Both the position numbers and the translations under genes were made by a program. A stretch of 62,513 nucleotides of DNA, taken from Planctomycetota bacterium (GTDB lineage Bacteria; Planctomycetota; Planctomycetia; Pirellulales; Lacipirellulaceae). Positions 40,913-57,115 of this stretch are shown one piece after another. The stretch's first letter is position 1, and every line of letters starts with the position of its first letter. The notes below the pieces were generated by a model, which had not been told where the DNA came from, did no database searches, and saw nothing but the letters and a program-made list of their open reading frames with translations. Location of the stretch: positions 1 to 62,513 of the forward strand of contig JAADGV010000081.1 of NCBI GenBank assembly GCA_013152205.1. The letters are read 5' to 3'.

Positions 40913-40966
40913 GATTTTCTATTTCTTAATTTGCTTCTATTTTTGGCAATGTCACTTTTGGCAATA

Positions 40967-41872
40967 TCACAGCGTGACCATCAGTAACATAGCCATCCAG
41001 GCGGGCAAATAAATCAATGTCCCTCGCAGTAATAACCGCGCGGAGGTCTCGTCGCGATGTAGTGCAAAACGTACTGCCAACGCATACTGGACCGTACCAA
41101 GACAAAAAGTCCAAACTAAAAAAACCAACGGGCTGCCCCCAGTGGGCAAGATCGTGGGAATCAAACTTACGGGGATAAGTACCAAGGCTCCGACCACTGC
41201 CATGCTGCCGCATCGTATTCCCGAAGGATCGACCACCGAGAGCATCTGATGTCCGCCTGCCGCATAGTCGCGACGGTACAGCCAGGCAATCGCCATGAAA
41301 TGAGGGAACTGCCAAAGGAACAGCACCCCGGCCAAAGCATAAGCAGCCAGATCGAGCGTAGCACCGGTTGCGGTCCAGCCCATTAGCACAGGTATCGCCC
41401 CTGCAACGGCGCCGATGGTGGTATTTAGCGGAGTGCGTTTTTTGAGTGGTGTGTAAACCAATACATAAAGTACCCAACTAGCCGTGCCTAAGGCTGCAGT
41501 CAACAAATTTACTTTCCAGACCAGCCAAACCAATCCGAGTAGTACCATCGCCGCCGACAGCAGCAGGGCTTCCGCACTGCTCACTCGACCAGCCGGCAAG
41601 GGTCGATCCGCCGTTCGCTGCATCCGGGCATCGCTATCTCGCTCCCACCATCCGTTGGCGATACTAGCACTTGCCGCGACCAACGCCGTTGCAAACAGTG
41701 CATGCATCACCGTCGCGGCGTCGAGCCCTCGCGGCATCGCCAAACAAGCGGCCACCCCGGCAACGAGTAGTTCCAACACCACAATTCGCGGCTTGGTCAT
41801 CTCGACATAATCGGCAAGTCGCGCCCACACGGCAGAGCCAGTTCGCTCGGCAGTCAAAACAGAGGTACTCAT
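40967..41872 (-). CDS. ctaB: protohaem IX farnesyltransferase (haem O synthase)
   Basis: A protein of 301 residues of the UbiA superfamily. The substrate-binding motif reads NGWWERDSDARMQRTADRPLP, and a second aspartate-rich region sits at YRRDYAAGGHQML. It adds a farnesyl group to haem B to make haem O, the precursor of haem A for the oxidase encoded alongside. ATG 41872 overlaps the ctaA stop as ATGA, so I reject a longer in-frame reading upstream. About nine hydrophobic helices are present. Confidence 0.95.
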   Translation of the reverse strand: MSTSVLTAERTGSAVWARLADYVEMTKPRIVVLELLVAGVAACLAMPRGLDAATVMHALFATALVAASASIANGWWERDSDARMQRTADRPLPAGRVSSAEALLLSAAMVLLGLVWLVWKVNLLTAALGTASWVLYVLVYTPLKKRTPLNTTIGAVAGAIPVLMGWTATGATLDLAAYALAGVLFLWQFPHFMAIAWLYRRDYAAGGHQMLSVVDPSGIRCGSMAVVGALVLIPVSLIPTILPTGGSPLVFLVWTFCLGTVQYALAVRFALHRDETSARLLLRGTLIYLPAWMAMLLMVTL

Positions 41873-42879
41873 CGGGCCACCTCCGTCATCAGAGAAGGCG
41901 ACACCGACAAGAAAACGACTCCTAGGCCCAACTGTCTTGCAAATCGCAAGGCTATCACCAGAGTCGCAACAAATATCAGCGAACCAACAGCGACATGGCT
42001 GGTGATAATAGTCGCCTGTAGGAAGTCTGCTTCGCGGTTTACAAAGGCCATTTCGCCAAACATGGTCGTCGCCCAATTTGGCAGGCCGTATTTTACTAAC
42101 CAAGTGCCAAGGCCAAGAGACAACTGAACGGCAACCAATGCCACCAGACCGATGCCGGCAGCCACTTGCAATCGGTTGCGGAAACACCGCCAAGCCAACA
42201 GCAACACATGCCCCACGATCAGTAGAGCTAGTAGAACGTGTAGGTAAACAGCCGATTGGAACAACGCACCAGCCGTCTCGCTCAGCATGTATGGGCTATG
42301 GCGAACCACTGCCCCAACCACCAACTGAGCGTATGCCATTGCTACGCAAAGAATTGATAAACGCAACACTTTGCGTCTGCTGTCGGTTTCGACTTCGACC
42401 GAAACGCTTTGCCACCAACGCGAGGTAAACACGACCATCGCCGCACACAAAGCAAAAAACAGGGGGCCGGTGCAGCCGTGGATTAAGGCCAGCGTGCGTT
42501 GATCTAGTACCACTCGCATACCACCTATAACGCCTTGCAAAATCACCCCGGCCAAAATCACTAAGCTAAACTTTCGCACCCAACTTCTTGGCTCGGTACG
42601 CCATGTTACCAGCACAAGTGCGATCGAAAGCAAACCGGCAGTCATCCCCAACAGGCGATGCCCATGCTCAACAAATTTATCACCCGCCGAGCTGAACCAC
42701 GGGTAGAAGGGCATCAAATAGCCATCGGAGGTTAGCCAATCGCGAAACGCCATCCCCGCATCGGTGGTTGTCACCAATCCGCCCACCCAAATCAATGGGA
42801 ACGTTGCGCACGCTAACAACCAGGCACAACGGTGCGCCCATTTGCTGCGATTTTCGGCAATGGTCGGTTCAGTGTTCAT
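41869..42879 (-). CDS. ctaA: haem A synthase (CtaA/Cox15)
   Basis: A protein of 336 residues with eight hydrophobic helices. Conserved histidines appear in VEHGHRLLGM, LALIHGCTGPLFF, YLHVLLALLIVGH and IITSHVAVGSL, the haem ligands of the family. The WVGGLVTTTDAGMA segment near the N-terminus is also typical. It oxidises haem O to haem A. It lies 31 bases after subunit I and overlaps ctaB, matching the ctaA-ctaB pairing of many oxidase clusters. Confidence 0.94.
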   Translation of the reverse strand: MNTEPTIAENRSKWAHRCAWLLACATFPLIWVGGLVTTTDAGMAFRDWLTSDGYLMPFYPWFSSAGDKFVEHGHRLLGMTAGLLSIALVLVTWRTEPRSWVRKFSLVILAGVILQGVIGGMRVVLDQRTLALIHGCTGPLFFALCAAMVVFTSRWWQSVSVEVETDSRRKVLRLSILCVAMAYAQLVVGAVVRHSPYMLSETAGALFQSAVYLHVLLALLIVGHVLLLAWRCFRNRLQVAAGIGLVALVAVQLSLGLGTWLVKYGLPNWATTMFGEMAFVNREADFLQATIITSHVAVGSLIFVATLVIALRFARQLGLGVVFLSVSPSLMTEVAR

Positions 42880-42910: not shown

Positions 42911-44683
42911 TTACACGCTTGATTCTTCTGCTTTTTCGGGTGGTGGTTGCGTTTGTGGGTAGTAGTCTTCTTCTACTTCTGGCGAACTGTACTCGTAGGG
43001 TCCGCGATAAATGATCGGTTGGAAATCGAAGTTGCCATGCCCTGGCGGGCTTGGAGCTTGCCATTCTAGTCCATTCGATCGCCAAGGATTTCGGCCAGCC
43101 TTTGGGCCAAAAAACATGCTGCCGAAGAAGTTAATCACAAAGATGATTTGAATGCCAACTAACAGGAATGCACAAACACTCATAAATTGGTTGAGTGGCA
43201 ACAAGTTCTGGAATGTTTCGTACTGATAGGGGTCTGCTAGTCGTCGTGGGAAACCCTGCATCCCCAGAATATGCATCGGATAGAACACACAGTTCAGCAA
43301 GATGAAGGTAAGGAAAAAATGCACTTTCCCCCACGAGTCGTTCATCATCCGTCCAAACATTTTGGGATACCAAAAGTAGATGGCGCCAAAGACGGCCATC
43401 GCGGTTCCAGAAAACAGAACGTAGTGGAAATGTGCCACGATGAAGTAGGTATCGTGGATAAAAATGTCGGTCGGCGTAGCAGCCATGAAGATGCCGCTCA
43501 AACCGCCGATGATAAACATCGACACGAATGAAATGGCAAACAACATCGGCGTGGTGTATTCAATTTTTCCACCCCAAAGCGTCCCCAGCCAGTTGAAGGT
43601 CTTAATCGCACTCGGCAAGGCAATCATCATCGTCGCAACCATAAACGACATGCCCAGCATGGGGTTCATGCCCGAAACAAACATGTGGTGACCCCAGACA
43701 ATGAAGCCTAGGCCGGCAATGCCTGAAATCGAATACACCATCGGCTTGTAACCGAACAATGGTTTGCGTGCAAAGCAGCTTAAAATGTCGGACACCATTC
43801 CCATCGCAGGCAGGATCATGATGTACACCGCCGGATGGCTATAGAACCAGAACAGATGCTGCCACAACAGCGGCTGACCACCGCCAGAAGCCATCGCCAT
43901 GTTATTCGCAGTCGCCCCGTCCGATAGAAAGAAGCCTGTGCCGAGCAGTCGGTCGGCAACTTGCATAAAACCGGCGGCAGTTAGCACTGGCAGTGCGAAG
44001 GCCTGTAGAATCGCGGTGATAAACATTGCCCAAATCGTCATCGGCAATCGGAACATCGTCATTCCGGGAGCGCGCATTTGGATGATGGTCGTCATGTAGT
44101 TGATCGATCCCATCATGGACGAGATCCCGACAAACGTCACGCCCAATAGCCATAACGTCTGTCCCTGACTCGCAAACACCGAAAGCGGAGGATAGGCGGT
44201 CCAGCCGCCCTGGGCAGCACCTCCTTCGACAAAAAAGCTTCCGCCGATCAGCAAAAACGCTGGCCACATGAACCAGTAACTCAGCATGTTCAAAGTTGGC
44301 ACAGCCATATCGTCTGCGCCAATCATCAAGGGGATCAAAAAGTTTCCAAAGGCACCTGCCAAAACGGGAATGATCACAAAAAAGATCATCACCGTGGCGT
44401 GCATGGTGACAAGCATGGTGTAGTTTTCTGGAGCGATCTGGCCACCTTCAGCAGCGCCCACCAAATTCCCCAAAATGGGCATCGGTGCCCAGGGATAAGC
44501 CAATTGCCAGCGAATTCCTAGCGCCAACATTCCGCCTATAAAAAACCAGATCAGCGTGCTGAACAGAAATTGCAGACCGATAACCTTGTGGTCTAACGAA
44601 AAGACGTAGGTCCGCAAAAAGCCGCTGGCGTGCGCGTGCTCTGCATGGTCATCCGAATGGGCGTCAACTGTAACCGTACTCAT
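42911..44683 (-). CDS. coxA: cytochrome c oxidase subunit I, type A2 haem-copper oxidase
   Basis: A protein of 590 residues with about 12 membrane helices. Ligands: H95 for low-spin haem, H283 and Y287 (crosslink), H332 and H333 for CuB, H418 and H420 for the two haems. The segment FWFYSHPAVY has Tyr-Ser (281-282) where type A1 enzymes have the GHPE glutamate, marking a type A2 enzyme as in Rhodothermus caa3. The subunit reduces oxygen to water and pumps protons. ATG 44683 has GAGAG upstream. The His-rich N-terminus and proline-rich C-terminus (about 560-590) extend beyond the core. Confidence 0.97.
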   Translation of the reverse strand: MSTVTVDAHSDDHAEHAHASGFLRTYVFSLDHKVIGLQFLFSTLIWFFIGGMLALGIRWQLAYPWAPMPILGNLVGAAEGGQIAPENYTMLVTMHATVMIFFVIIPVLAGAFGNFLIPLMIGADDMAVPTLNMLSYWFMWPAFLLIGGSFFVEGGAAQGGWTAYPPLSVFASQGQTLWLLGVTFVGISSMMGSINYMTTIIQMRAPGMTMFRLPMTIWAMFITAILQAFALPVLTAAGFMQVADRLLGTGFFLSDGATANNMAMASGGGQPLLWQHLFWFYSHPAVYIMILPAMGMVSDILSCFARKPLFGYKPMVYSISGIAGLGFIVWGHHMFVSGMNPMLGMSFMVATMMIALPSAIKTFNWLGTLWGGKIEYTTPMLFAISFVSMFIIGGLSGIFMAATPTDIFIHDTYFIVAHFHYVLFSGTAMAVFGAIYFWYPKMFGRMMNDSWGKVHFFLTFILLNCVFYPMHILGMQGFPRRLADPYQYETFQNLLPLNQFMSVCAFLLVGIQIIFVINFFGSMFFGPKAGRNPWRSNGLEWQAPSPPGHGNFDFQPIIYRGPYEYSSPEVEEDYYPQTQPPPEKAEESSV

Positions 44684-44846
44684 GGTTCTCTCGCTTTTAC
44701 AAACGATGAGTATTGCCACTCACCATCGATTCTCTTTCGACTCGTGCAAGATGCACAACATGCGGTCGCGACTTGCCGTTTGGCCAACGGTTTCCTGGGA
44801 AATCACGATCACGCATTTTGGAAAGTTATTCTATTACTCGTCTTCG

Positions 44847-45617
44847 TCATCCTCTGCGATGGCGACTCGCATGGTATTCTTTATCTTGCCGCATTTCTTC
44901 GAGCTTTGCCTCGAATTCATCGCGATCAACAAAATAAACACGGCCCTTCATTTTGTAATGGCCCCAGCCGCACAGCTCGGCACAGACGATGTCGAACTCG
45001 CCCTTCTCTGTCGCTTTGAACCACATAATCTGTTCCATGCCCGGCACAACGTCTTGCTTGATCCGCAAGTTTGGCAAAAAGAAACTATGCAGCACATCGG
45101 CGCTGGTAATCCTTAGCACCACGGTCTCGTCGTAGGGCAAGTAGAGTTTGCCATCAGTCCGAACGATATCGTCTTCGGTATACAGTTCGTTATCAGGCCC
45201 CGGGTAGCGGAAGTCCCAATTAAACTGCCGACCGGTCACTTCGACGATAGGCTTGAGATCGGGCGGACGCATTTTAATGTCAGCCCATGCTTCCATTTGA
45301 TAGATCGCAATGAACAGCAGCGTTACCGCGGGCAAAATAGTCCACACGATCTCCAGCGCATGGCTCCCGTGCGAAAAACTGACCGGTTCTTTACTCGTTT
45401 CGCCATTGTACTTCCAAGAGCAGTAGATCAGCACAAACTGCGTGGCGATAAAAACGGCTCCTGTCAGGTACAGGATAAACATGAACAGGTTGTCAATCGT
45501 CTGCCCGTGCTCCGAAACATCTTTCGGTAGCCAAATATTGAAGTACGGGGCAACCATAAAAGTAGCCACGCCGCCAATCGGCACGAGCAGGAACAGAAAA
45601 GTCCAAAAATGTTTCAC
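44847..45617 (-). CDS. coxB: cytochrome c oxidase subunit II (CuA domain)
   Basis: A protein of 256 residues. Two membrane helices (about 10-30 and 45-70 of the N-terminal part, with a further segment near 90-108) precede the CuA domain. CuA ligands are H177 (DVLHSFF), C212, C216, H220 and M223 (CAELCGWGHYKM). There is no cytochrome c domain after CuA, unlike fused caa3 subunit II. I choose GTG 45617 (VKHFWTF) because GGAGG lies 6 bases upstream; TTG 45635 is a poor alternative. It receives electrons and passes them to subunit I. A 163-base gap separates it from coxA. Confidence 0.95.
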   Translation of the reverse strand: MKHFWTFLFLLVPIGGVATFMVAPYFNIWLPKDVSEHGQTIDNLFMFILYLTGAVFIATQFVLIYCSWKYNGETSKEPVSFSHGSHALEIVWTILPAVTLLFIAIYQMEAWADIKMRPPDLKPIVEVTGRQFNWDFRYPGPDNELYTEDDIVRTDGKLYLPYDETVVLRITSADVLHSFFLPNLRIKQDVVPGMEQIMWFKATEKGEFDIVCAELCGWGHYKMKGRVYFVDRDEFEAKLEEMRQDKEYHASRHRRG

Positions 45618-45707
45618 AACAGTCCTCCACGCCAACTAAGTGCGCAGGAATCAGGCGATTTTTAGTTACGAACTCTTAGCCAAGCGACAACGAAACCAGT
45701 CTCTTGG

Positions 45708-47036
45708 CTAATTTACAGCTTCTAAATTTACCGGCAGTGCTTTTAGCGGACGGCTCGGCGTTTCGTAGGGCAACGATAAGACGTAGTCAACAATATTCCA
45801 AATCTCTTCTTCTTTCAGCGTCCCCTGAGCGCCAGGACTAGCTGGCCCGGTGGCAGGCATCGGCGTACCGGCAATGCCCGTGTAAATACGCCAGAAGATG
45901 TCCAATCGACGACGGCCACCGCGGTAAATCCCTTGTCGCAAGTTTCGCGGAATCGCGTTGCGAACCGTATAGATCGAAGCGACCACTTCCGCACGGCTTG
46001 CTACGATTCCCGGATGAACACCCTCTTGGTCTCCGGCATTGACCATATCTTGTAAAAACTTCTTATGGGCTTTGTTCCAACTGTCTTGGTCGTCTTGTTG
46101 GCCATCGCCCAGAGCAGTCGGGCCATGACATTTCACACAGTTTGCTCGTGTGCCAAAAAACAACTCTCGCCCTTGGGCAACCGAGGCGGCAATCTCTTCC
46201 GCATTTCGATTGTCGGCAGGAATGTGATCTTCCGATGGAATCACTACCTTTTCAGCCGACGACTCCCAGCCTTCGATAATCTCAGCCAACAATTCCATGA
46301 CGACTTCGCGTTGCTCAGGATCGTTTACTGGATCAAGGGGAATGCGCTTTGTGATTTCGTTCCCTTCACTATCGACCTTTTCGTCGCCATTCTCATCGAC
46401 TTCGGCTTCCTCACCCAAGTCGTCGTAGACATAGGCGGCTAGACTGACCTCGAGTTGTCCACGGATGCTTAGGTATTTGACGTACTCGACCAGAGCTTCT
46501 AACTCTGAATGGGGAAGCAACGAAAACGAGGGCATTGCCGTACCTGGCACACCATTCACGAGAACTCTGAGTAGATCGTCGTCCGTAGGCCGGTCTGCGT
46601 TGTAGGTCGACTTAAACTTGTAAACGCCCTGACGATAGTCTCGCGGGTAAGGATTCAAGAAGCGAGCCGTTGGGCCTCGACCGTCACCCGTAATCCCGTG
46701 GCAATGCACGCAATGTTTACGGTAGAGACCATGATTGGTACCCTTCTCGTCGCTCCAAGCTGCGCCGGCTGCCATTCGCAAACGACTCAAATCGAGTCCC
46801 GCCTCTGGCACAGCATAAGGCTCGTCTGGCGTACCAAACATTGCTCCCAACACGTCCGCAATCTCTTGTTGATATTCGGGCGAAGTGGGCGTCTCGTTCG
46901 ACACCATCTGCGTCATATTCAGACGAAACGGCGGAGGCTCTACCTTGCCACAGCCAACCAACAAGGCTGCAGCAGCCATCCACCAAGTCAAATTTTTGCG
47001 AAGCGATTCGTGATTCATCGCCACCGAGCCATTCAT
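45708..47036 (-). CDS. dihaem cytochrome c lipoprotein
   Basis: A protein of 442 residues. A lipoprotein signal ends at LLVGCGK (lipid Cys29). Two class-I cytochrome c domains hold CVHCH (109-113) and CVKCH (300-304), with likely Met ligands in GTAMPSF (168) and GTPMPAT. Between them lies an acidic linker (about 195-285, DENGDEKVDSEGNE). It sits directly before coxB, so it probably donates electrons to CuA in place of a fused cytochrome domain. ATG 47036 or 47018 may be the start. The gap to coxB is 90 bases. Confidence 0.92.
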   Translation of the reverse strand: MNGSVAMNHESLRKNLTWWMAAAALLVGCGKVEPPPFRLNMTQMVSNETPTSPEYQQEIADVLGAMFGTPDEPYAVPEAGLDLSRLRMAAGAAWSDEKGTNHGLYRKHCVHCHGITGDGRGPTARFLNPYPRDYRQGVYKFKSTYNADRPTDDDLLRVLVNGVPGTAMPSFSLLPHSELEALVEYVKYLSIRGQLEVSLAAYVYDDLGEEAEVDENGDEKVDSEGNEITKRIPLDPVNDPEQREVVMELLAEIIEGWESSAEKVVIPSEDHIPADNRNAEEIAASVAQGRELFFGTRANCVKCHGPTALGDGQQDDQDSWNKAHKKFLQDMVNAGDQEGVHPGIVASRAEVVASIYTVRNAIPRNLRQGIYRGGRRRLDIFWRIYTGIAGTPMPATGPASPGAQGTLKEEEIWNIVDYVLSLPYETPSRPLKALPVNLEAVN

Positions 47037-47071: not shown

Positions 47072-48010
47072 TCAGCCGCCAAACGCCGTGGGCGGGACCG
47101 TCAATTGAACTTCTCGCACTTCATCTTCGGCGAGTGAAACAACGAACCGACCTTTCTTATTCCATTTCAACTCTTTCGCTTCGGGCGTATCCAAAAGCAA
47201 AGCACCGCCAGGGCCCGTTCCGATCTCGTGCCAAACCTGGAACTCCAGTTTCTCGCCAGCCGGAACATTGGAAATCTCAAACGACCCATCAGCAGCCGTC
47301 ACAGCGAAATAGCTATTCTTGCGAGGCAGATAGTAGGCGATCATCCATGGGTGGATGCTGCACCGAATTGCCTGCGGTATCGCTTCTTCCTTTTGTGGCA
47401 AAAAATCAACCGTTTCGTTGGCTGGAATCGTCTGATTAAAACCATTCTTGCCTTCGATATTTGTGTTATGCCCAACGGGATCGCTATTTTTAATCGAGAT
47501 GGTCTGACCAACGGTCAGTGGAAATACGTGCGTCAGAAACACGCATGCTTTCTGATCAAACAAGACACTGTCGGCCTTCGGTTCAGCCGACTCATGCACC
47601 CGCGATGTTTTTCGGAGGAAGACCACGACGTTGGCAATCCCTTTGCTACCCGAGTCGACCAACAAAGTTTCTTGCGGCGGGGCTTTGCCATCGATCTTGC
47701 AGGTTGCTTCGTCTTTATTTGCGTTGTAGGGAGCCATCTCCGGGGGCGAACCCTCGAAGACGAACTTGCCTTTGATCGTCGCCCAACCTGTCCCCGCAGC
47801 AACGACCGATTCGCTCGAACCACTTTCTGTAACGCCTGCAGAAAAAGCCTCGCGGATTTTCACGGAAGTCGCGGCATTGGCGACCGGGCCTAGATCTGTG
47901 TTTTGCTGACAGCCGGCAAGCGTCAAAACGCTAAACAGCATCAGCAAGCACCCGATGCCGTGTTTCGCGACGACCAACGATTCTGATTTTCTTGCGTGAT
48001 TTCTGAACAT
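47072..48010 (-). CDS. amicyanin-like cupredoxin lipoprotein
   Basis: A protein of 312 residues. A lipoprotein signal ends at LTLAGCQQ (lipid Cys34). A region with C104 and C156 (FDQKACVFLTHV) precedes a type-1 copper set: H181 (VGHNTN), C217, H220 and M223 in CSIHPWM, the C-x2-H-x2-M spacing of amicyanin. The C-terminal part (AADGSFEISNVPAGEKLEFQVWHE) resembles a carboxypeptidase-regulatory-like beta domain. It is a paralogue of the next upstream gene. A copper electron carrier on the membrane is likely; a structural role cannot be excluded. ATG 48010 gives a normal signal peptide. Confidence 0.8.
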   Translation of the reverse strand: MFRNHARKSESLVVAKHGIGCLLMLFSVLTLAGCQQNTDLGPVANAATSVKIREAFSAGVTESGSSESVVAAGTGWATIKGKFVFEGSPPEMAPYNANKDEATCKIDGKAPPQETLLVDSGSKGIANVVVFLRKTSRVHESAEPKADSVLFDQKACVFLTHVFPLTVGQTISIKNSDPVGHNTNIEGKNGFNQTIPANETVDFLPQKEEAIPQAIRCSIHPWMIAYYLPRKNSYFAVTAADGSFEISNVPAGEKLEFQVWHEIGTGPGGALLLDTPEAKELKWNKKGRFVVSLAEDEVREVQLTVPPTAFGG

Positions 48011-48086
48011 TGAATGCTTCTTTATTCGCGTCAACAGGCAGTGCGGTATGCGATACCGCACTGCCGTGTCTGACACCTATGGTCGC

Positions 48087-48896
48087 TTACTTACGTAAAT
48101 CGGAAAGTTTGACTTTGATTTCGCCCAAGTCGAGTTCACCATCCGCTGGGATCTTCAACTTGGCGCGTCCTTTTCGGCTGGTTTTGGATTTGCCGACGGA
48201 TAGTTTTTTCAGATTGCCGCTGGATTCTTGCCAAAAGATAAACTCATGCGTTCCAGCTGGAATTTTCTCAATCACAAAACTGCCATCCTCACCCGAGGTC
48301 GCCATGTAGGGATTGTCGCGAATCAGCACATGGGCCTTCATCCACGGGTGAATACTACAGACAGCACTGGAAGGATAAGATTCTGACTTCGTAAACATCT
48401 TTTTAATTGGCGAGTCGTTGGTCACCATCTCATTGAATGCTGGATTCTTGAGCAATGTGAAGTTGGTGTTGTGGCCGATGCCTTTATCCGAATTTCTGAC
48501 TTCAAGCGTTTGCCCCGTACGTAGGAGGGCGACATGAGGCTCGAAACGACATCCGTGGTTGTCCAGCACAACCGGTTCGCTACTTGGCTCGGCCAAGTCG
48601 GGATGAATATCTACTGACTTTCCTCGCTTGAGGTAAAGGTACACAAATACGTTTTTCAGAGCGTTACCTTCGCCGACGGCGATTGACTCGTCGACTAAGT
48701 TGTTTTTACCGCAATACTCGACATCTTTACTCACAGTCAGTGCGGTGGGTTCGCCCAGATCACCGTCCAACACAAACCGCCCCTTGAGCGTTCCCCAGTC
48801 GGCAGCAGTGGCCGAGGCAAATGTTGCCAAGGCAATGGCAGCAAACACGGCCACTCGAGTGCAACCCGTCAAATGTTTTGAATTGATTGTCATCAT
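48087..48896 (-). CDS. amicyanin-like cupredoxin, secreted paralogue
   Basis: A protein of 269 residues with a Sec signal (AVFAAIALATFASATAAD) and no lipobox. Conserved features are C62 (YCGK), C116 (NHGCRFEPHV) and the copper set H142 (GHNTNF), C180, H183 and M186 in CSIHPWM. A DGSFVIEKIPAGTHEFIFW beta unit follows. ATG 48896 has GAGGGG upstream; an earlier in-frame ATG overlapping the octahaem gene lacks such a site. It follows the octahaem gene by 47 bases. It probably carries electrons between the octahaem protein and the oxidase. Confidence 0.8.
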   Translation of the reverse strand: MMTINSKHLTGCTRVAVFAAIALATFASATAADWGTLKGRFVLDGDLGEPTALTVSKDVEYCGKNNLVDESIAVGEGNALKNVFVYLYLKRGKSVDIHPDLAEPSSEPVVLDNHGCRFEPHVALLRTGQTLEVRNSDKGIGHNTNFTLLKNPAFNEMVTNDSPIKKMFTKSESYPSSAVCSIHPWMKAHVLIRDNPYMATSGEDGSFVIEKIPAGTHEFIFWQESSGNLKKLSVGKSKTSRKGRAKLKIPADGELDLGEIKVKLSDLRK

Positions 48897-48943
48897 TTTA
48901 CCCCTCTTCTCAAAAACTCGAAAAAATAAACCCCAAAAGTGCT

Positions 48944-51900
48944 TCATCTGCGCGATGGTTTCTCTGGACTTGCGTCTGAGGTTTGAGTACTAGCCTCGGC
49001 TTCAGTCTTTGCCTCGTCTGCTTCGTTGGCCTCTTCTGCCGGAGCCGTTTTTACCTTCGCATCCTCAACGAGTTGTGTCACCGACGTCTGCCGTTTGGCA
49101 TAAACATCAAAGTTCATCAGCACATCAACGAGCCCGTCCAGTTGTTCTAAACTGGTTCCATGATACACATCCTGCGAAATACCTGCTGGGAACGGAATAT
49201 TCACCGGCATGCCCGTGTAAGGCAAAATACGTTTTGGATTCGCTACCCAATTTTGGACGTAATCAGGACGTAGCCGACGGTAAACGTCTGCCAAATTTGG
49301 ACCAAAGGTCGCCCGATCGCCCTGCGGTAAAAAGTCTCCCACAGCATGGCACTTCACGCAATAGTTGCCGTTCACGACGATATTCATCGCCTCGGCCAAT
49401 CGCTCCGGCCGATCGCCTTCTAAACTGGCCAGATAACTCTCGCGTTGTCGCGGCTTGTACTCGTAGGGGAATTCAGCTCCCGAGACGGCTGCAAAATAAT
49501 TAACCAGCTTTTCTGCATCCGCAGCCGACATGTGGAAGTTTGGCATTCGCATCAAAACCGCAGGGCGAATCGCGGTTGGATCCATCAGAAAACCGTGCAG
49601 CCAATCGGTCTGTACTTTCGAGCCTTCGTCCAGCAACTGTGGTGGCAACCAACCCCATGCCTCCGCACCCTTCACCTGCGGGTTGATCTCCTTCGCTCGA
49701 GCAATTGCCTTCGGATAGAGATATCGGGCCAAGTCGCCGCCCCAGGTCGGATAAGCTTTACCGTCCGCCGGGCCGTAGCCTTCGCGGTTGGCCGGAATCA
49801 TTAGGTTCTGCAAACCTACTAGCCAAGGCTCACCGTTAATCACGCTATCTTTCCAAAGAGTGAACAGATAGTACGGATCAGACTCATCATCGTCCGGCTC
49901 AATCGACAAACCGTCTTCGTCAAAGAGCTCTGGCAAACCTGTCTCTTCGCTCATCACCGGCAAGCCGTGTACGGTGGCATGAGTCCGGCCCCGTACATCT
50001 GTTTTCAAAGATGCAGCAATTTCTTTTGGATCGAAATGTTTGGTGAGGAATGGGAAATCGTTCACCTCTGAGGGCGAATCAAACTGATCCTCCTCAAACG
50101 CCAACTGCCACTGCTCCATTTGCAGCGTGTGGCAGCCAGCACAATTGAATCGATCGAGAACCAGCCGACCATCGACAATCGCCTTCTGCCGCGGATCGGG
50201 CTTATAAACAAACTGCTCGGCAGGCGCTTCGTTCACCAAGCCCAAGACAAACGTGATAACTGCTTCACGCTGTTCTTTATTGAAGGGGAACTTCGGCATT
50301 CGTAGCCGTTCGTTGTAACCTTTATTTCTGGTCGTCTTATAATCGTAGCTGCGAGGCATTCTTAACTTTTGCCAAATAAAACCATCGCGAGAATGGCTAT
50401 TAAGCGACTGGATGTAGTAGCTAGTGTCTGGATCGAAGTCGGCCGGATCGAGATGGCCATGCGAAGCATGTTCGTCCTCATCGGCATGCTCTGCCGAAGA
50501 ATGCTCGGCATCAGCATTTGGATTGCCGTGACCTTCTAGGAACTTCTGAATGTTTTCGAAAGCAAGCTTCGAGGTTTCTTTGCGTCCCCAATCAGCTAGC
50601 GGGGTACCAATTGGCTTAGCCGTTTCGAAACCGGGGATATCGTGACAGCCAAAACAACCGTGCTTGCTGATCGAACGACGGGCCACATATTCCTGTAGCT
50701 TAGCAAGCCGGTTTTCGGCGTTGATACCAATGAGCAGCTTCTCGTCCGACTTCAGCTTCGAATCTAAGTGATCTGGAATACCTTGCTCTACAAACTTCTT
50801 TGCTCGGGCAGTCGGTATTGCATCGCTGGTGAGCCATTCTTGAGCCAAATCGGCCAAAGCTTCTTGCTCGGCTGGCGACCACTCTTGGGCAACAGCGGCA
50901 GGCTTCCAGTCCGAGGCACTGCCCATCAGAAAAGCAGCAATATCGGCAGCCGGATCGGTCACCTTTCCGGTAGGTTGGCCGGTTACGTCAACTTCTTCGA
51001 TCGGGTCTAAAAATAGATCAGGCATCTTGGTCCGACCATGGTAGCGGTGCGGTTTCTTGATCCAAGAGTACAGCCAAGATGGCCCCTTCTCAGAACTGAA
51101 CTTTGCCCCAACACGAGACAAATCAGGCCCTTGGTCTGAAGCAATCCCAGTGAAGGCTTCGTGCGAGTGGCAGGCCAAACAGCCGCGCGACTCGAATTGC
51201 CATTTACCACGCTCAGCCGACGGGGCTTCGGTCACCTCCGCAGGCTGCTGGAGATACTCAAACTCGTTGCTATTGGAGAGCAAAAATTCTGCCATCGCAC
51301 GAATTTCGACCGGTTCAAACCGTTTCGACACGGCAAGCTCATCGGCATCGTCTTCGTCTTGCAGATGTTCATGCAATCCAAAGAACTGCGGCATACGAGT
51401 CGTGGGACGGAAATCCGACGGTTTAGAAATCCAGGCATGGAGCCAATCGAAATCAACTTTGGAGTTCAAGTATCGCAAGCTTGGCCCCGCCTTGCGGTAA
51501 GAGCCAGGGGCTTCAACGTCTTTCAAGCCATCTGTCAATTGATGCGTGGCAGTCGTCAGAGTTGCTTCTTCCTGCGTTTCAGCATTTTGAGCCAGCGTCT
51601 CATCTCGCTTAATTGCGACGTTCAACAGATGGCGAATCGCATCGCTGTCAGGCGAGTCGATAAGTGTTTTGGCCCATTTTTGCTGCTCTTCGGTGAGGCC
51701 GCCATCTTGCAAAATCTGGCTGGCCACCTCGCTATAGTTAGGCTCAAGTCGCACATCCGGACCGATACGCTTATCGGGGCCAGCGAAGCCACCGATTTCG
51801 TGGCAACCGAAGCAACCATATTTTTCAACCAGCGTCCAACCTTCGACCAACTTCGGCGCTGGAGGCTCAGGGAAACGCTCGCTCGGTTCCAACGATCCTT

Positions 51901-53551
51901 TGTCATGATGACATTTCGTGCAGTTGCTCTCGGCAAACCGTGCTGGCTTCATCGGAAAAATCCAATGGTGATTATCAAACCAGCCAAACTCCTCCGACCA
52001 TTTTATCTGTTGATCGGCATCGTTTGGCGTATGCGAAGTCCAACGGAAGGAAGTACCGCTGCCCTGTCCGTCATGACAAACGGTGCAGCCAAACACTTTT
52101 TCTGAATGAGGGCTCGCATCGGAAAGGTATAAGTCAAGGCGCGGATGAGAAACAAAGGGGTGGTCTAAGCCACGACGTACGGTTAACGACGCTGCCTCGC
52201 CCCATTTCACTCCATTCAACAGATAGTTCGTCGCGGTCTCGGGGTCGTAAGTTGGCTTGTCGCCCGCCAGACGAATGACATCGCCCGACTCCAGGCCAGC
52301 ACGCGCTGCCGCACTCTCTGGCAAGACGTAATGCACCGTCACGTCGGCGTAATTGACGATTCCTTCTTCGGCTATCACAAAACCATAGACGTCACGCACC
52401 GTCGCATCCGCTGCAGGCGCTTCGTCGGGTGTCGCCAAACTGATTGTCAACTCACGCTGTTCCTCTTCGAGCATTGGATAGGCTGGCTCTGCGGATGTCC
52501 CTGGAGCCGTCAGGGCAATTGCCTGATGGCAAGACTTACACCGATCGAATCGGGCAACCTGCGAAAAGTTGAAGTTGATCGTCAGATCGGGAAGCCAAAT
52601 CTGGTTAATACGGACGTTTCCATCGTAGAGTGCGTCCAATATTGGCCAACGGGTCACCCATTCCAAAGGGTTGGTCGTATCCTTGTATACCTGCTCTTCC
52701 AGACGGGCTAACTCCCCTTTAAGCGAATCCCTCTCCTTTGCCAATTTGGCATGGTCGGAATCCAAGTCGCGGATCAAATACTCTAGACCAAGACGATAGT
52801 CTTTCGCGATTGCAATCTCTTCCGTTAGCGCAGCTATTTCCTCGGTGTATCCGTCGATTCGTGTTTGGATTTTCTCACGAACAGCAACGCTGGCACCTTC
52901 GCCAACTTTTAGTCCCAATTCACTCACCGTGGCAGTACGATCAGCAGCTACTGATTTTCGGTTGGCAACTATTTTTTTCTCTAGCCGCATTGCCTCAGTA
53001 AAATACTCGTGGAGTTCCGCAAATACCTTCTCACGCGCGCTAATCGCCTGGTCTTCTGCTTTCTGAGCCTCACGCTGTAGCGAGGCATCGACTTCGTCGC
53101 CGGCCTGCTCTACTTTGCCGCTTGCTTGCTCTGCTGCTGAAGCAGCTTCGCCTAGCGTTTCTATCGCTTTGTCGAGAGCCGAAAAATCTGTCGGTTCTGA
53201 TCGACGCTCGTTGTCTGCTGACACGAGGGCCTTGAATTTCTCGATCAACGTTGCATCGAGATTTGCAGCCTGAGCGCGACGTATGCCAGCCGCCATGGAG
53301 TCCATGTTCTCAGAAAATTGATCCGCCATGGAGTCGTGCTGCGCACGGATCATCCACGCATCTTTCTTCCGGTCGGCTAGCTGCCATTTCTTCCACTCAC
53401 GGTTATGGTCTTTTGCCAATAGCCAAAGTGTAGCAAACAGCATCACCAGCGTGGACACGCCAAAGACGATGTGTAGCACCTTTTGATTACGCCAAGTTTT
53501 TTCGGTTGCGGGCATAGGGCGAGTAATTCTCAGAGGTCTGCCTAAAGCCAT
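48944..53551 (-). CDS. giant octahaem cytochrome c with coiled coil and PDZ-like domain
   Basis: A protein of 1535 residues. A single membrane anchor (about 24-46) is followed by a long charged coiled coil (about 70-295, Glu/Lys/Ala-rich). Eight CxxCH haem sites start at residues 338 (CKSCH), 489 (CTVCH), 544 (CTKCH), 580 (CFGCH), 791 (CLACH), 966 (CFGCH), 1137 (CAGCH) and 1398 (CVKCH). A PDZ-like domain (about 388-462; SAAARAGLESGDVIRLAGD) lies between sites 1 and 2. A His/Glu/Asp-rich stretch (about 1010-1035) may bind metal. It sits where cytochrome c1 or f would be encoded, so it is likely the electron-accepting subunit of the Rieske/b complex. ATG 53551 is used; Met13 (53515) is possible. 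Confidence 0.93.
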   Translation of the reverse strand: MALGRPLRITRPMPATEKTWRNQKVLHIVFGVSTLVMLFATLWLLAKDHNREWKKWQLADRKKDAWMIRAQHDSMADQFSENMDSMAAGIRRAQAANLDATLIEKFKALVSADNERRSEPTDFSALDKAIETLGEAASAAEQASGKVEQAGDEVDASLQREAQKAEDQAISAREKVFAELHEYFTEAMRLEKKIVANRKSVAADRTATVSELGLKVGEGASVAVREKIQTRIDGYTEEIAALTEEIAIAKDYRLGLEYLIRDLDSDHAKLAKERDSLKGELARLEEQVYKDTTNPLEWVTRWPILDALYDGNVRINQIWLPDLTINFNFSQVARFDRCKSCHQAIALTAPGTSAEPAYPMLEEEQRELTISLATPDEAPAADATVRDVYGFVIAEEGIVNYADVTVHYVLPESAAARAGLESGDVIRLAGDKPTYDPETATNYLLNGVKWGEAASLTVRRGLDHPFVSHPRLDLYLSDASPHSEKVFGCTVCHDGQGSGTSFRWTSHTPNDADQQIKWSEEFGWFDNHHWIFPMKPARFAESNCTKCHHDKGSLEPSERFPEPPAPKLVEGWTLVEKYGCFGCHEIGGFAGPDKRIGPDVRLEPNYSEVASQILQDGGLTEEQQKWAKTLIDSPDSDAIRHLLNVAIKRDETLAQNAETQEEATLTTATHQLTDGLKDVEAPGSYRKAGPSLRYLNSKVDFDWLHAWISKPSDFRPTTRMPQFFGLHEHLQDEDDADELAVSKRFEPVEIRAMAEFLLSNSNEFEYLQQPAEVTEAPSAERGKWQFESRGCLACHSHEAFTGIASDQGPDLSRVGAKFSSEKGPSWLYSWIKKPHRYHGRTKMPDLFLDPIEEVDVTGQPTGKVTDPAADIAAFLMGSASDWKPAAVAQEWSPAEQEALADLAQEWLTSDAIPTARAKKFVEQGIPDHLDSKLKSDEKLLIGINAENRLAKLQEYVARRSISKHGCFGCHDIPGFETAKPIGTPLADWGRKETSKLAFENIQKFLEGHGNPNADAEHSSAEHADEDEHASHGHLDPADFDPDTSYYIQSLNSHSRDGFIWQKLRMPRSYDYKTTRNKGYNERLRMPKFPFNKEQREAVITFVLGLVNEAPAEQFVYKPDPRQKAIVDGRLVLDRFNCAGCHTLQMEQWQLAFEEDQFDSPSEVNDFPFLTKHFDPKEIAASLKTDVRGRTHATVHGLPVMSEETGLPELFDEDGLSIEPDDDESDPYYLFTLWKDSVINGEPWLVGLQNLMIPANREGYGPADGKAYPTWGGDLARYLYPKAIARAKEINPQVKGAEAWGWLPPQLLDEGSKVQTDWLHGFLMDPTAIRPAVLMRMPNFHMSAADAEKLVNYFAAVSGAEFPYEYKPRQRESYLASLEGDRPERLAEAMNIVVNGNYCVKCHAVGDFLPQGDRATFGPNLADVYRRLRPDYVQNWVANPKRILPYTGMPVNIPFPAGISQDVYHGTSLEQLDGLVDVLMNFDVYAKRQTSVTQLVEDAKVKTAPAEEANEADEAKTEAEASTQTSDASPEKPSRR

Positions 53552-53608: not shown

Positions 53609-54973
53609 TTAAAAATTCAAAAAGTATTCAGGGATCGTAATCAGGTATTTCAAATTGAAAACCCAACGAAGGACCATCTTGATCGGCAACGAAGCCATAA
53701 ATAGCAGTAGATTGGTCATCACCATAAACCGTATGAAACCCATCTTCTGATAAAACTTGCGGAATATCGTCAGTGCCATAAGTGGCGGAAGTACGATGAA
53801 ATAGCCCAATACTAGGAAAATACCAATCCATTCGCGGTAGATGATATAACCGATTTGCACCAGCAGGTTACTGCCGGCTGGAGCTACCGGGATATGGCCT
53901 TGCCAGAAAACATCCGACAGGTAGACGTTTACTAATGCCTCGACCTTGTGCGCATCCCAATGCTCATAGGGACCAAAGAAGTTCCAGTTCGGGCCTCGCA
54001 AGAGCGTGCCCAGCACGATAAGCGTGACCCACATCTCCAAGAAACCAAACTGAAAAATAATATAGCTAAACTTACGCTCTTTGATCGTGTAGTAGCCATT
54101 CCCTCGCTTGTTGAAGTCGAGATACGGAATGGCCATCAAACCGGCAACGATCAAACTCGGCAGCACCACGCCCGCCATCCACGGGTCGTAGTAGACCAAC
54201 ATTTCTTGCAGGCCGAGGAAATACCAAGGGGCCTTCGAGGGATTCGGCGTCTTTGCTTGATTGGCCGCTTCTTCCAATGGAGCCGGCAGCCCGATCGCCC
54301 AAAAAATCAAGAACGCGGTTAGCGCGATCATGCAAATTAACTCGATATAGACCAAGTCGGGCCATACCAGAACCTTTTCGTTATTCAGTTTCTCTAGTGG
54401 CGGCTCGCCACGAGCAATACGCTTGTCGTTCTCAACTGCCTGAGAGGTCCCCAGCCAAGTAAAGAAGGCGAGCAGGAACACTAGCATGACGATCGGCACA
54501 TTGTCTGGCTTAGCGACGATCTCGTAGAAGTCTGCGTCGGTCATCGACAGGCCAAGAAACAACCACATCAGATTCCAAATTGCCCAAGCGATGGCTGGCT
54601 TGACAAAGAACCCTCGAAAAACATACAGCACCACTAGGCCGAGCGTCGTACCGACACTGTAGATAACCGGCCCCGTGCTATTGTTGATCGCGTCTCGTAC
54701 CGACTCAGGAAGCGACAAAGTTTCTGCCGATCCACCAGCCCAGGCAGCGAGAACCGAAAACGCACAACCGACGATCAACCAAACGTGGGAATTGGTGATT
54801 TCAATTTTGCTGCCAATGCCCGGAATTGGCAGCTTACACCAAGCCTGCATCTGGCCAGATCGCCAAAGATACAGTGCGGCCAAGCCATTCATTGCAGCCA
54901 GCGCAAGGTAATAGGGCACCAAAAATGAGGCGACCATACTAAAAAACTGGGCTTCGGTCAGTCCGTGGGTCAT
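53609..54973 (-). CDS. cytochrome b C-terminal (subunit-IV-like) protein with extra helices
   Basis: A protein of 454 residues with about ten membrane helices. The quinol-site motif is APWYFLGLQE (W250, Y251), equivalent to PEWY, followed by the subunit-IV core (DPWMAGVVLPSLIVAGLMAIPYLDFN). About 200 residues with five helices precede a VLVWPDLVYIELI segment; plant subunit IV (about 160 residues) has no such extension. It forms the quinol-oxidising site with the Rieske protein. ATG 54973 is the only reasonable start. It follows the b6-type gene after an 89-base repeat-like spacer. Confidence 0.9.
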   Translation of the reverse strand: MTHGLTEAQFFSMVASFLVPYYLALAAMNGLAALYLWRSGQMQAWCKLPIPGIGSKIEITNSHVWLIVGCAFSVLAAWAGGSAETLSLPESVRDAINNSTGPVIYSVGTTLGLVVLYVFRGFFVKPAIAWAIWNLMWLFLGLSMTDADFYEIVAKPDNVPIVMLVFLLAFFTWLGTSQAVENDKRIARGEPPLEKLNNEKVLVWPDLVYIELICMIALTAFLIFWAIGLPAPLEEAANQAKTPNPSKAPWYFLGLQEMLVYYDPWMAGVVLPSLIVAGLMAIPYLDFNKRGNGYYTIKERKFSYIIFQFGFLEMWVTLIVLGTLLRGPNWNFFGPYEHWDAHKVEALVNVYLSDVFWQGHIPVAPAGSNLLVQIGYIIYREWIGIFLVLGYFIVLPPLMALTIFRKFYQKMGFIRFMVMTNLLLFMASLPIKMVLRWVFNLKYLITIPEYFLNF

Positions 54974-55062: not shown

Positions 55063-55839
55063 TTATAAAGGTCCGCTGATGCCGCCGTCCTTTCTTACCC
55101 GCCAAAAGTGGATCGCCAGTAGCAGAGCTACACCTAGCGGGATCGCGATACAATGCAAAATATAAAACCGATTAAGCGTCTCTTCGCCTACCTCGCGCGC
55201 ACCTAAGAGCGCAAAGCGGGCGTCCGAGGCGTTTGTAATCATGTCGACACCGCCTAACGTCAACAACTGCTGGCCGGGGCCTTCGTGTCCAAGTACGGGC
55301 GTAGCGCGAGCCATATTCGAGCCCACAGTAATCGCCCAAACAGCCAACTGATCCCACGGCAACAGATAGCCCGTGAACGACAACAGCAGCGTCAACAACA
55401 ACAAAAACACCCCCACCACCCAATTGAACTCGCGTGGGGGTTTATAGCTACCGGTAAGAAATACACGGTACATGTGCAACCAGACGGTAATCACCATCGC
55501 ATGGGCAGCCCAACGATGGACTTCTCGCAATATCCCCAAGGAATGGACGTCTCGCAGCATCTGAATATCGACATACGCCCACTCGACCGTCGGGCGGTAG
55601 TAAAACATCAACAGCACACCGGTCACGGTTTCCACCAGAAACAGAAAGAACGTCACCCCGCCCATGCACCAAGTGTAGGAAAGCGCAATCCCCTGCTTCT
55701 TGACCGAGACAGGGTGCAGATGCAAGAAAAAGTTGGTCAGCATCACCACAATCCGATTGCGGCGGTCCACCGGCATCGGATGTCGGAAAACGCTCTTCCA
55801 GATTTGTGATTCGCGAATGATCTCGCCTAATCCCGGCAT
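55063..55839 (-). CDS. cytochrome b6-type subunit with candidate haem ci cysteine
   Basis: A protein of 258 residues, four helices. Haem b ligands are H108/H122 (13 residues between) and H229/H244 (14 between, the b6 spacing; bc1 cytochrome b has 13). C58 in [20 protein letters not shown] aligns with Cys35 of plant cytochrome b6, which binds haem ci covalently. The [11 protein letters not shown] and [16 protein letters not shown] segments also match b6. It transfers electrons across the membrane between quinol and quinone sites. ATG 55839 follows GGTAGGTAGAG. It lies 108 bases after the Rieske gene. Confidence 0.94.
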
Positions 55840-55947: not shown

Positions 55948-56949
55948 TTATGCAGGAATGTAGCAGGATGCGTCGCTCCATTCGCCCTTTTCTTCAAAGA
56001 ACATGCGACTCTTATCAATTTCAATCTGCCCATCGTCCGCTATTCGGATAGCAAACCGTTCTAATGGACGTGGTGCAGGACCTTCGAAATTGATGCCGTC
56101 CTTGTAAAAGCCACTCCCGTGACAAGGGCATTTGTATTTCTGTTCGGCCTCGAGCCAGTTGGGCGTACAGCCTAAGTGCGTACAAACCGATCGCAAGGCA
56201 TAGATCTGTTGCTGCCCGTTGTACTCGGCGTTGGCTATCCAAACGCCAAACTGAGCCTTGAACTTTGTATTGACTTGGCCTGCGGGAAAAGCATCCGGGA
56301 GCCCTACCTTAAACTTGCTCGGCGGCTCGCGCAGGACGTTGGGAAACATGAACCTCACGGTTTCAACCGTCCACAGCACCAACACACCGAATAAGCCCAC
56401 CATGCCGACGACAAGAAATCCGCGACGAGTTTCCTCTGGCGCTTTACCTTTTGCTTTGACAGGCGGCTTGGCCATTGCGTAAGCCGGCTTCTCGGGCATC
56501 GGCGGCACGACAATTTTTGGCTTAGGCTTCGGGTCGGCCTTCTCTTTCGCAGCCGCTTCCGATTTGCTCATCGGTCCCGCTTTGGACGACTTCTTAGCCG
56601 CAGCCAAGATGCTTGCGGTATCGCGAGGCTCAGCTGGCTTGCTGGGCTTGGCAGCTTTTGCCGCAGCCGGTTTGGCTTTTGCCGCTGGCTTCTTAGCAGC
56701 CGGTTTGGCAGCAGACTTCTCGGCGTCTCCGCCTGCCTTTGCTCCGCGAGCCATTGCCATCATCTCGGCAACGCTTGGCCGACCACCCGACGAAGACTTG
56801 GCCGGCGCCGGTTTCTTAGCAGGCGCGGCTTCTTCCGATGCCGACTCCACTGGGGTACTTTCCTCAGCATCCGACGCCGAGCCATCACCGTCAGCCTTTC
56901 GGGCTGCGGCCAGCATCTCGGCAACCGACATTTTTTTCTTATCCGCCAT
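55948..56949 (-). CDS. Rieske iron-sulfur protein with long Ala/Lys-rich N-terminal domain
   Basis: A protein of 333 residues. The cluster ligands are C256 and H258 (CTHLGC) and C274 and H277 (CPCHGSGF); C261 and C276 should form the disulfide. A membrane helix (about 177-199) follows TRRGFL (174-179), a Tat-like motif usual in Rieske proteins. The first 170 residues are Ala/Lys/Pro-rich and carry three related short motifs: SVAEMLAAAR (8-17), SVAEMMAMAR (59-68) and DTASILAAAK (110-119). This part should be cytoplasmic. Ordinary Rieske proteins lack it. ATG 56949 is the start. The gene heads the respiratory operon. Confidence 0.95.
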   Translation of the reverse strand: MADKKKMSVAEMLAAARKADGDGSASDAEESTPVESASEEAAPAKKPAPAKSSSGGRPSVAEMMAMARGAKAGGDAEKSAAKPAAKKPAAKAKPAAAKAAKPSKPAEPRDTASILAAAKKSSKAGPMSKSEAAAKEKADPKPKPKIVVPPMPEKPAYAMAKPPVKAKGKAPEETRRGFLVVGMVGLFGVLVLWTVETVRFMFPNVLREPPSKFKVGLPDAFPAGQVNTKFKAQFGVWIANAEYNGQQQIYALRSVCTHLGCTPNWLEAEQKYKCPCHGSGFYKDGINFEGPAPRPLERFAIRIADDGQIEIDKSRMFFEEKGEWSDASCYIPA

Positions 56950-57115
56950 TGTCGCCAATTCCGTCACGGTGAACGGTCGCACAAAAAAATCTATTCGAAG
57001 GGCTGCAAGACGAACATCTCACAGCCCATAATTCTACGAAAAAACATCCCGAAACATTTGCCGCAAAACGCTTTCCAGCAATAGTTTACGTAGCAAGACT
57101 CACTGCCACAAGAGT

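Follow-up and report, generated by a model that had tools for sequence, protein, structure and literature searches.

Background

Which protein draws electrons from a quinol-oxidising Rieske/cytochrome b complex when the gene that follows encodes a cytochrome with eight haem sites? In textbook bc complexes, the terminal cytochrome has a single haem. The question is raised by a 62,513-nucleotide stretch of DNA from a Planctomycetota bacterium (order Pirellulales, family Lacipirellulaceae; GenBank assembly GCA_013152205.1, contig JAADGV010000081.1, positions 1 to 62,513), the whole of which is called the window here. An open reading frame (ORF) on its minus strand, at 48944..53551, encodes a cytochrome c with eight CxxCH motifs (the octahaem protein) and directly follows genes for a Rieske protein, a b6-type cytochrome b (b6) and a subunit IV-like protein (SUIV). 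An initial annotation of the window proposed that the octahaem protein replaces cytochrome c1 or f, and our comparative analysis makes this very probable: it is the predicted c-type subunit of the Rieske/b6/SUIV complex, likely passing electrons on to blue-copper proteins, a dihaem cytochrome and an oxidase. We infer the assembly of this complex, the loading of its haems and the route of its electrons.

The replacement was first taken to be unprecedented, which does not hold. Complexes of this kind are already known from Kuenenia (PMC12954380), and the window protein is homologous to Kustd1485, which was modelled there in the position of cytochrome f. The annotation also allowed for a homologue already assigned to an unrelated complex; the closest characterised one is part of Kustd1480-1485, a complex of like kind (PMC12954380).

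Loci compared

Annotation covered the window, 36 loci from other genomes of the phylum and 80 from a named genome collection, with the window's and Kuenenia's proteins as queries. Loci L019-L054 were hand-chosen from among the matches listed. The genome collection was scanned with a single pattern for haem motif 6, [IV]x[RK][YQH]GC[FY][GS]CH, so that this motif is conserved by construction in those loci; of 537 confirmed relatives, the 80 best were retained. Four loci without an ORF of more than 700 residues were dropped (L081, L082, L083 and L090), which left 113 octahaem loci, and removal of the duplicates L061, L077, L084, L094 and L098 gave 108 distinct ones; some counts out of 113, 77, 74 and 84 include duplicates. 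Phylum names of loci are the titles of metagenome-assembled genomes (MAGs), which are possibly misbinned, and the phylum and order labels (Planctomycetota, Pirellulales) of some comparison genomes were taken from named close homologues.

The octahaem gene and protein

On the minus strand of 48944-53551 the frame runs through 1535 codons without a stop, and a plus-strand gene was ruled out by a plus frame 1 full of stops. The true start is probably residue 13 (ATG at 53515), giving 1523 residues, because M13-P14-A15 is nearly invariant in an alignment of 64 sequences, where relatives start at residue 13, and the database copy of the protein has 1523 residues. As first annotated, the protein has a single membrane anchor, the one hydrophobic segment found by hydropathy scan at residues 24-47 (53411..53482), and eight CxxCH motifs, which begin at residues 338, 489, 544, 580, 791, 966, 1137 and 1398 and use all 16 of its cysteines. 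Motif 1 (CKSCH, residues 338-342, 52526..52540) occupies an aligned column kept in 112-113 of 113 sequences. Motifs 2-4 lie at 51800..52087 and motifs 5-8 at 49346..51181; the latter span also holds conserved Met-Pro pairs at 843, 1085 and 1336, with Met720 just before it and Met1448 just after.

Eight motifs were present at all 108 distinct loci and in 118 of 121 proteins of the P set, the exceptions being three short entries with seven (P0083, P0088 and P0096). On sequence grounds the array is far beyond chance, and a fusion artefact was ruled out since relatives share the architecture. A search of the PDB with the protein sequence alone gave a best match of only E 0.04. In a PDB profile search, the 60 of 127 matches listed included cbb3 subunit II, NorC, class I cytochromes c and a c7-like protein, with no c1 or f named among them. 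Foldseek returned 77 matches for the haem part (best E 0.06; SoxX, NorC, cytochrome c), with complex III chains, read as c1/QcrC, at E 2 or worse. An octahaem enzyme of the HAO or NrfA type was rejected on account of five conserved Met and the lack of such a family among the Pfam matches listed. A promoter and terminator scan (3 promoter-like sites against 12.6 in shuffles, 38 terminator-like sites against 21.3) was not used.

Gene linkage and co-occurrence

Three lines of evidence support the replacement: c1 was not found in the genome, the octahaem gene directly follows Rieske/b6/SUIV, and both order and co-occurrence hold in relatives. The initial annotation had named a separate c1-type protein serving the Rieske/b pair as a finding that would speak against it; no such protein, and no match to cytochrome c1 (PF02167), was found in the organism's own genome, which is 93% complete. 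The octahaem protein had no match to PF02167 in a Pfam scan at E 1, and no apocytochrome f model was among the matches of whole-Pfam scans. The genome has two cytochrome b genes, that of the window and one on contig C47.

In 71 of the 81 distinct loci with at least 4 kb of upstream sequence, b6 and SUIV lie within 6 kb of the octahaem gene on the same strand, and 63 of these also have Rieske. The arrangement extends beyond the phylum as titled. Within L095-L135, 38 loci carry titles that name neither Planctomycetota nor Brocadiaceae (Acidobacteria, Vicinamibacteria, Deltaproteobacteria, Desulfobacterales, Proteobacteria, Latescibacteria, Gemmatimonadetes, Neomarinimicrobiota, Lentisphaerae, Hydrogenedentota, Bacteroidetes and Chlorobiaceae), and b6 and SUIV stand beside the octahaem gene in 34 of them. 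The remaining four (L106, L112, L123 and L133) have 0 to 2196 bases upstream, and three still show SUIV.

Co-occurrence was tabulated over 392 genomes of the phylum, counting octahaem matches at E <= 1e-16 and b6 matches at E <= 1e-50 and taking absence as no octahaem match at 1e-6. A strong b6 was found in 131 of 134 genomes with the octahaem protein versus 7 of 197 without it (Fisher p 4e-79); 61 genomes with intermediate octahaem matches, 23 of them with a strong b6, stand outside this table. Trees of the octahaem protein and of b6 plus SUIV, compared over 84 loci that include three duplicate pairs, gave a patristic correlation of r 0.85 (0 of 999 permutations as high) and shared 47 of 81 splits.

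As observations apart, seven of the loci that have an octahaem gene with no b6 or SUIV nearby are anammox or anammox-like (L029, L032, L033, L072, L076, L078 and L085), and in several of them the octahaem gene is followed by a cupredoxin, a dihaem cytochrome c and another multihaem gene. At L104 the row Rieske-b6-(oxidoreductase)-SUIV-octahaem occurs twice, in tandem on a single contig.

Predicted haem ligands

Haem motifs 2-8 are present in 113 of 113 aligned sequences and motif 1 in 112. Outside these motifs, the only His kept in at least 85% of sequences are His469, His482 and His507, found in all 113 (108 distinct) and clustered with haem motif 2 at 52031..52147. Met720, Met843, Met1085 and Met1336 are likewise kept in 113 of 113, and Met1448 in 107. 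Three His and five Met make eight, and there is therefore one possible distal ligand per haem. Judging from conservation, haems 1-3 would be bis-His and haems 4-8 His/Met, in agreement with the cytochrome c7-like matches at the front of the haem part and the class I cytochromes behind.

The octahaem protein would act as a molecular wire, in which haems 1-3 make up a bis-His tri-haem part and haems 4-8 are class-I-like with His/Met ligation. Quinol would be oxidised at the b6/Rieske site by electron bifurcation, and the Rieske head would hand one electron to a haem of the wire. The wire would in turn reduce the cupredoxins or the dihaem cytochrome, which would then reduce the CuA of CoxB.

Weighing the replacement

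A number of observations count against replacement of c1/f and the route just outlined. Ten of the 81 distinct loci lack b6 and SUIV nearby. In six of them (L029, L032, L033, L040, L045 and L052), those covered by a genome-wide look-up, a b6 lies elsewhere in the genome, which for L052 and L045 means about 10-11 kb away on the same strand of the same contig; the other four (L072, L076, L078 and L085) are Scalindua MAG loci. Three genomes (G072, G119 and G302) have the octahaem protein but no strong b6, and 30 have a strong b6 but a weak or no octahaem match, which may reflect octahaem divergence or another partner. Agreement of the trees would partly be explicable by shared species history alone. 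Oxidase genes were seen in just 16 of 113 loci, with limited flanks, so that the downstream half of the route is either lineage-specific or often unseen. Bis-His haems are usually low-potential and would be awkward in a high-potential chain. The AlphaFold2 model of residues 440 to the end, made with no cofactors, has a mean predicted local distance difference test (pLDDT) score of 70.9, and nothing fine is therefore drawn from this model of low to middling confidence.

Octahaem genes standing apart from b6 and SUIV in those ten loci would suit a different reading, namely that the octahaem protein is a separate multihaem carrier or reductase (for nitrite or an extracellular acceptor, for example) and only an operon mate, with the complex using another partner such as the dihaem cytochrome at 45708-47036. 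A dihaem gene is indeed in the row, but one was seen in a minority of loci with b6, SUIV and octahaem genes, and the octahaem protein is the more constant partner. Gene order differs in L038, L045, L052 and L073, yet across genomes the octahaem protein is accompanied by b6 in 131 of 134 cases. The other complex of Kuenenia does bear an extra HAO-like octahaem enzyme; however, in the Kuenenia AlphaFold3 model the anchor of the octahaem protein sits inside the complex (PMC12954380), and the Pfam matches listed include neither HAO nor NrfA families. We consider a separate carrier improbable and retain the octahaem protein as the predicted c-type subunit.

The gene row

On the minus strand, transcription would pass through Rieske, b6, SUIV, the octahaem gene, two cupredoxins, a dihaem cytochrome c, CoxB, CoxA and further ORFs. 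The Rieske [2Fe-2S] protein (55948..56982, 344 residues; PF00355, E 1.3e-8) has two Cys-His pairs, and these cluster ligands are kept in 72-74 of 74 relatives. Its long N-terminus ahead of the anchor (56431-56982, about 184 residues) is rich in Ala, Pro and Lys and carries a repeated short motif, VAEMLAAARKADG / VAEMMAMARGAKAGG / ASILAAAKKSSK. A similar extension is present in L019 and L022, and there is none in L028, the Kuenenia locus.

The b6 protein (55063..55839, 258 residues; Pfam, NCBIfam and alignment) has His40 and His42, Cys58 and His108, His122, His229 and His244. The last four, which we take to be the b-haem ligands, are kept in 81 of 81 distinct b6 sequences, and Cys58, presumably the site of haem c_n, in 77. 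The SUIV protein (53609..54973, 454 residues; Pfam and NCBIfam) has extra hydrophobic segments in its first approximately 200 residues by hydropathy. The core is b6f-like as judged from its sequences: both the four haem His and the c_n Cys are present in a cytochrome b that is separate from SUIV.

Downstream of the octahaem gene, two proteins of 286 residues (48087..48947) and 334 residues (47072..48076) are homologous to each other (112 bits) and had no Pfam family over cut-off. His159, Cys197, His200 and Met203 of the first are kept in 75-77 of 77 relatives of the pair. Both are predicted blue-copper proteins, because these residues have the spacing of a type 1 copper site, which we liken to that of amicyanin. 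They are followed by the dihaem cytochrome c (45708..47036, 442 residues; Pfam and homology), cytochrome c oxidase subunit II (CoxB, 44847..45635; PF02790, PF00116) and subunit I (CoxA, 42911..44719; PF00115, E 3e-149). CtaA-, CtaB- and CoxC-like ORFs were read from translations at 39914-42879.

The helical arm

Residues 48-309 (52625..53410) form a long, coiled-coil-like helical arm in an AlphaFold2 front model, a single-chain model of residues 1-620 built from an alignment of 64 sequences. Helices were predicted at 17-95, 100-116, 124-150, 156-217, 222-263, 265-290 and 295-309, with pLDDT exceeding 90 between about residues 71 and 280 and falling off towards either end. In relatives, Pro+Gly content was lower in the arm than in the rest of the protein in 107 of 108 sequences, five of which had fewer than 15 scorable arm residues. 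The coiled coil of the initial annotation is thus a fair name for the arm as modelled in one chain, with helices from residue 17 to 309.

That the coiled coil binds the oxidase, as had also been suggested, was not supported. In favour of such binding, the arm of the window (haem 1 at residue 338) and of some other loci linked to an oxidase exceeds that of Kuenenia (haem 1 at 236) in length, but the arm is not tied to an oxidase link: a long arm is found also at loci where no oxidase was seen, and in two of these (L044 and L053) it is about equally long or longer. In turn, L025 and L039, which belong to the window's order, have just 120 and 95 residues ahead of haem 1; this can be loss of the arm or a wrong ORF start. 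L067, L092 and L106 are also short-armed and have upstream stretches of 92, 52 and 0 bases. Because the arm is also present without an adjacent oxidase, docking of an oxidase is unlikely to be its shared job. Instead, the arm would probably brace the octahaem protein round the Rieske/b6 dimer, a proposal made by analogy because AlphaFold3 showed such an arm for the Kuenenia homologue.

The PDZ domain

A PDZ-like domain between haem sites 1 and 2 was correctly recognised in the initial annotation. AlphaFold2 predicts a folded domain at about residues 367-462 (52166..52453) with pLDDT 86-95, and the best PDB matches of the front model in Foldseek were PDZ domains (probability 1.00, template modelling score to target about 0.75, E about 5e-3), none reaching 1e-3. 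The window protein matched Pfam PDZ_2 and PDZ_6 at E 2e-4 and 4e-4, below the Pfam cut-offs.

The spacing between haems 1 and 2 is at least 140 in only five loci (the window, L019, L020, L021 and L025), all of the same order, and at most 100 in the other 103 of the 108 distinct loci, including the same-order L039. A Pfam PDZ match was found in those five, over cut-off in L019, L021 and L025 and below it in the window and L020, and in 3 of the 14 members of alignment A1. Protein P0109 has a spacing of 242, which was read from its sequence as two PDZ domains. As judged from these sequences, the insertion is seen in Pirellulales only. With five same-order loci of 108, the PDZ domain is therefore not part of a shared mechanism; it is probably a later add-on that would dock a partner in Pirellulales.

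Both domains also figure in a reading in which the arm and PDZ domain clamp the oxidase in a quinol:oxygen supercomplex that needs no soluble carrier, like actinobacterial bcc-aa3. Besides the window, nine loci of the first set have CoxB-CoxA downstream, and six loci titled Latescibacteria (three), Gemmatimonadetes, Lentisphaerae and Hydrogenedentota carry oxidase genes. However, the PDZ-type long spacing is missing in 12 of the 16 oxidase-bearing loci. In the window, as in some other loci linked to an oxidase, the stretch ahead of haem 1 is long, but equally a long arm occurs where no oxidase was seen. A weak QcrC match (30-48 bits) in all three octahaem homologues scanned favours the supercomplex; the genes that lie between those of the octahaem protein and the oxidase speak against a carrier-free junction, as they encode one or two cupredoxins and often a dihaem cytochrome as well. 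We regard a clamped supercomplex as rather unlikely, and prefer transfer from the octahaem protein by way of the blue-copper or dihaem proteins.

Comparison with known complexes

The nearest known system is that of Kuenenia, in which complexes combine a b6-like cytochrome b with SUIV and have, where cytochrome f would be, a cytochrome with six or eight haems (PMC12954380). Locus L028 is the Kustd1480-1485 locus: His62, Arg266 and Lys267 of its cytochrome b and Arg550 of its 566-residue oxidoreductase match the residues printed in PMC12954380. Its closest named relative is Candidatus Kuenenia hertensis, at 81%. The likeness to the window takes in Rieske, the b6-like cytochrome b, SUIV with extra helices and a multihaem cytochrome c in place of cytochrome f; Kuenenia SUIV was modelled with five helices instead of three (PMC12954380). 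The L028 octahaem protein is homologous to that of the window (250 bits; 29% identity in A1) and likewise has long N-terminal helices ahead of haem 1. Each of the eight haem motifs is invariant across the 14 sequences of A1, in which the L028 protein is aligned. This protein differs in having 948 residues and no PDZ insertion, and SUIV has 277 residues in Kuenenia as against 454 in the window. The Kuenenia row also includes an NAD(P) oxidoreductase, with no cupredoxin, dihaem cytochrome c or oxidase in the fetched stretch.

The oxidoreductase suggests a further explanation, in which an anammox-like bifurcation sends the low-potential branch to a cytoplasmic NAD(P) oxidoreductase and not to quinone. 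In Kuenenia, a novel b haem was predicted between the two His62 (PMC12954380), and the extra-b-haem residues His62, Arg266 and Lys267 correspond to His40, Arg249 and Lys250 of the window. His40 and Arg249 are kept in 81 of 81 distinct b6 sequences, and position 250 is Lys in 66 of them and Arg in the remaining 15; in the second b protein of the window's own genome, a Glu aligns with His40. Nevertheless, the row of the window has no NAD(P) oxidoreductase gene, and a homology scan found one in 14 of 113 octahaem loci and also in L083 and L090, which had been dropped. With the exception of L090's title, every genus or family named among these loci is an anammox lineage. The extra-b-haem site at His40 is therefore not tied to the oxidoreductase, and a branch to NAD(P) in the window is very unlikely indeed. 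Quinol oxidation with the octahaem protein as high-potential output remains the preferred reading.

Cytochrome b6f shares with the window the split b6-/SUIV-like cytochrome b, the Cys for haem c_n, Rieske and a plausible blue-copper acceptor; the octahaem protein differs in having no cytochrome f Pfam match and eight haem motifs instead of one. Alternative complex III (ActA-F) is also a multihaem quinol:cytochrome c oxidoreductase, but is built of different subunits. In actinobacterial bcc complexes, cytochrome b is unsplit. They resemble the window in having a c subunit (QcrC) with more than one haem and aa3 oxidase genes nearby, and differ from it in that QcrC has two haems, not eight, and in the cupredoxins of the window row (PMC8361435). 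The three octahaem homologues scanned remain far below the NCBIfam QcrC cut-off of 200 bits, and that model was not among the matches of the window protein. The Geobacter Ext system (ExtO Rieske, ExtP b, ExtQ, ExtM/N/S) likewise joins a Rieske/b core to multihaem cytochromes, but these are separate proteins of 4, 10 and 12 haems (PMC5877670). ExtP and ExtQ are the best NCBIfam models for b6 and SUIV, but both matches fall short of the cut-off (263 bits against 290 for ExtP, 60 against 150 for ExtQ).

Planctomycetes are mentioned as having b6f-type Rieske paralogues and a fused cytochrome b-c1 (PMC4013037), and a proposal by Dibrova, as cited in PMC5317091, holds that multihaem c proteins were early Rieske acceptors. 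In the literature searched we found no description of a coil-PDZ-octahaem protein or of a spread over several phyla; Dibrova et al. 2013, ten Brink and Baymann 2014 and Kartal et al. 2013 may hold part of it. New here are the occurrence in MAGs from several additional phyla, the set of ligands, the copper/oxidase wiring, the PDZ insertion of Pirellulales and the arm without an adjacent oxidase. Taken further, these features could define a third class of cytochrome bc complex, "b6-c8", beside bc1 and b6f and over several phyla. It would have a b6/SUIV/Rieske core with an extra inter-monomer b haem and, replacing c1/f, an eight-haem cytochrome arm with a fixed ligand code (three bis-His, five His/Met), with O2 respiration via blue copper and a PDZ docking clamp in the lineage of the window. 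We offer this wider reading tentatively, as one with a real chance of being right that falls somewhat short of probable.

Other quinol and multihaem clusters

In the window's own genome, contig C47 (L008:3253-9810) carries a second Rieske/cytochrome b pair. After it come a 580-residue protein with eight CxxCH motifs, a large protein that by our reading is a molybdopterin oxidoreductase, and a protein with four CxxCH motifs; the cluster recalls the Nap-linked Rieske/b of Caldithrix (PMC5317091). Contig C23 (L139:6279-14004) has an alternative complex III-like cluster with five-CxxCH, molybdopterin-like (1009 residues), NrfD-like and one-CxxCH proteins, and because of it the genome likely has three quinol-oxidising systems. 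On contig C118 (L138:9140-11730), four-CxxCH, iron-sulphur-like and NrfD-like proteins stand in a row, possibly an Nrf/Psr-type unit. L090, titled Neomarinimicrobiota, has an anammox-like row with the oxidoreductase, and its contig is probably misbinned.

Conclusions

Kustd1480-1485 is no longer isolated: its octahaem cytochrome and extra-b-haem-site residues are shared with complexes that have no NAD(P) oxidoreductase. These features therefore call for an explanation other than NAD(P) reduction. The finding also raises the question of why a bis-His part with three haems would persist in a chain of high potential. The octahaem gene is carried by Bythopirellula goksoeyrii and Lacipirellula limnantheis, both in culture, and the proposal is therefore testable in them. 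If it is true across phyla, much bacterial quinol oxidation may use an uncharacterised eight-haem output arm.

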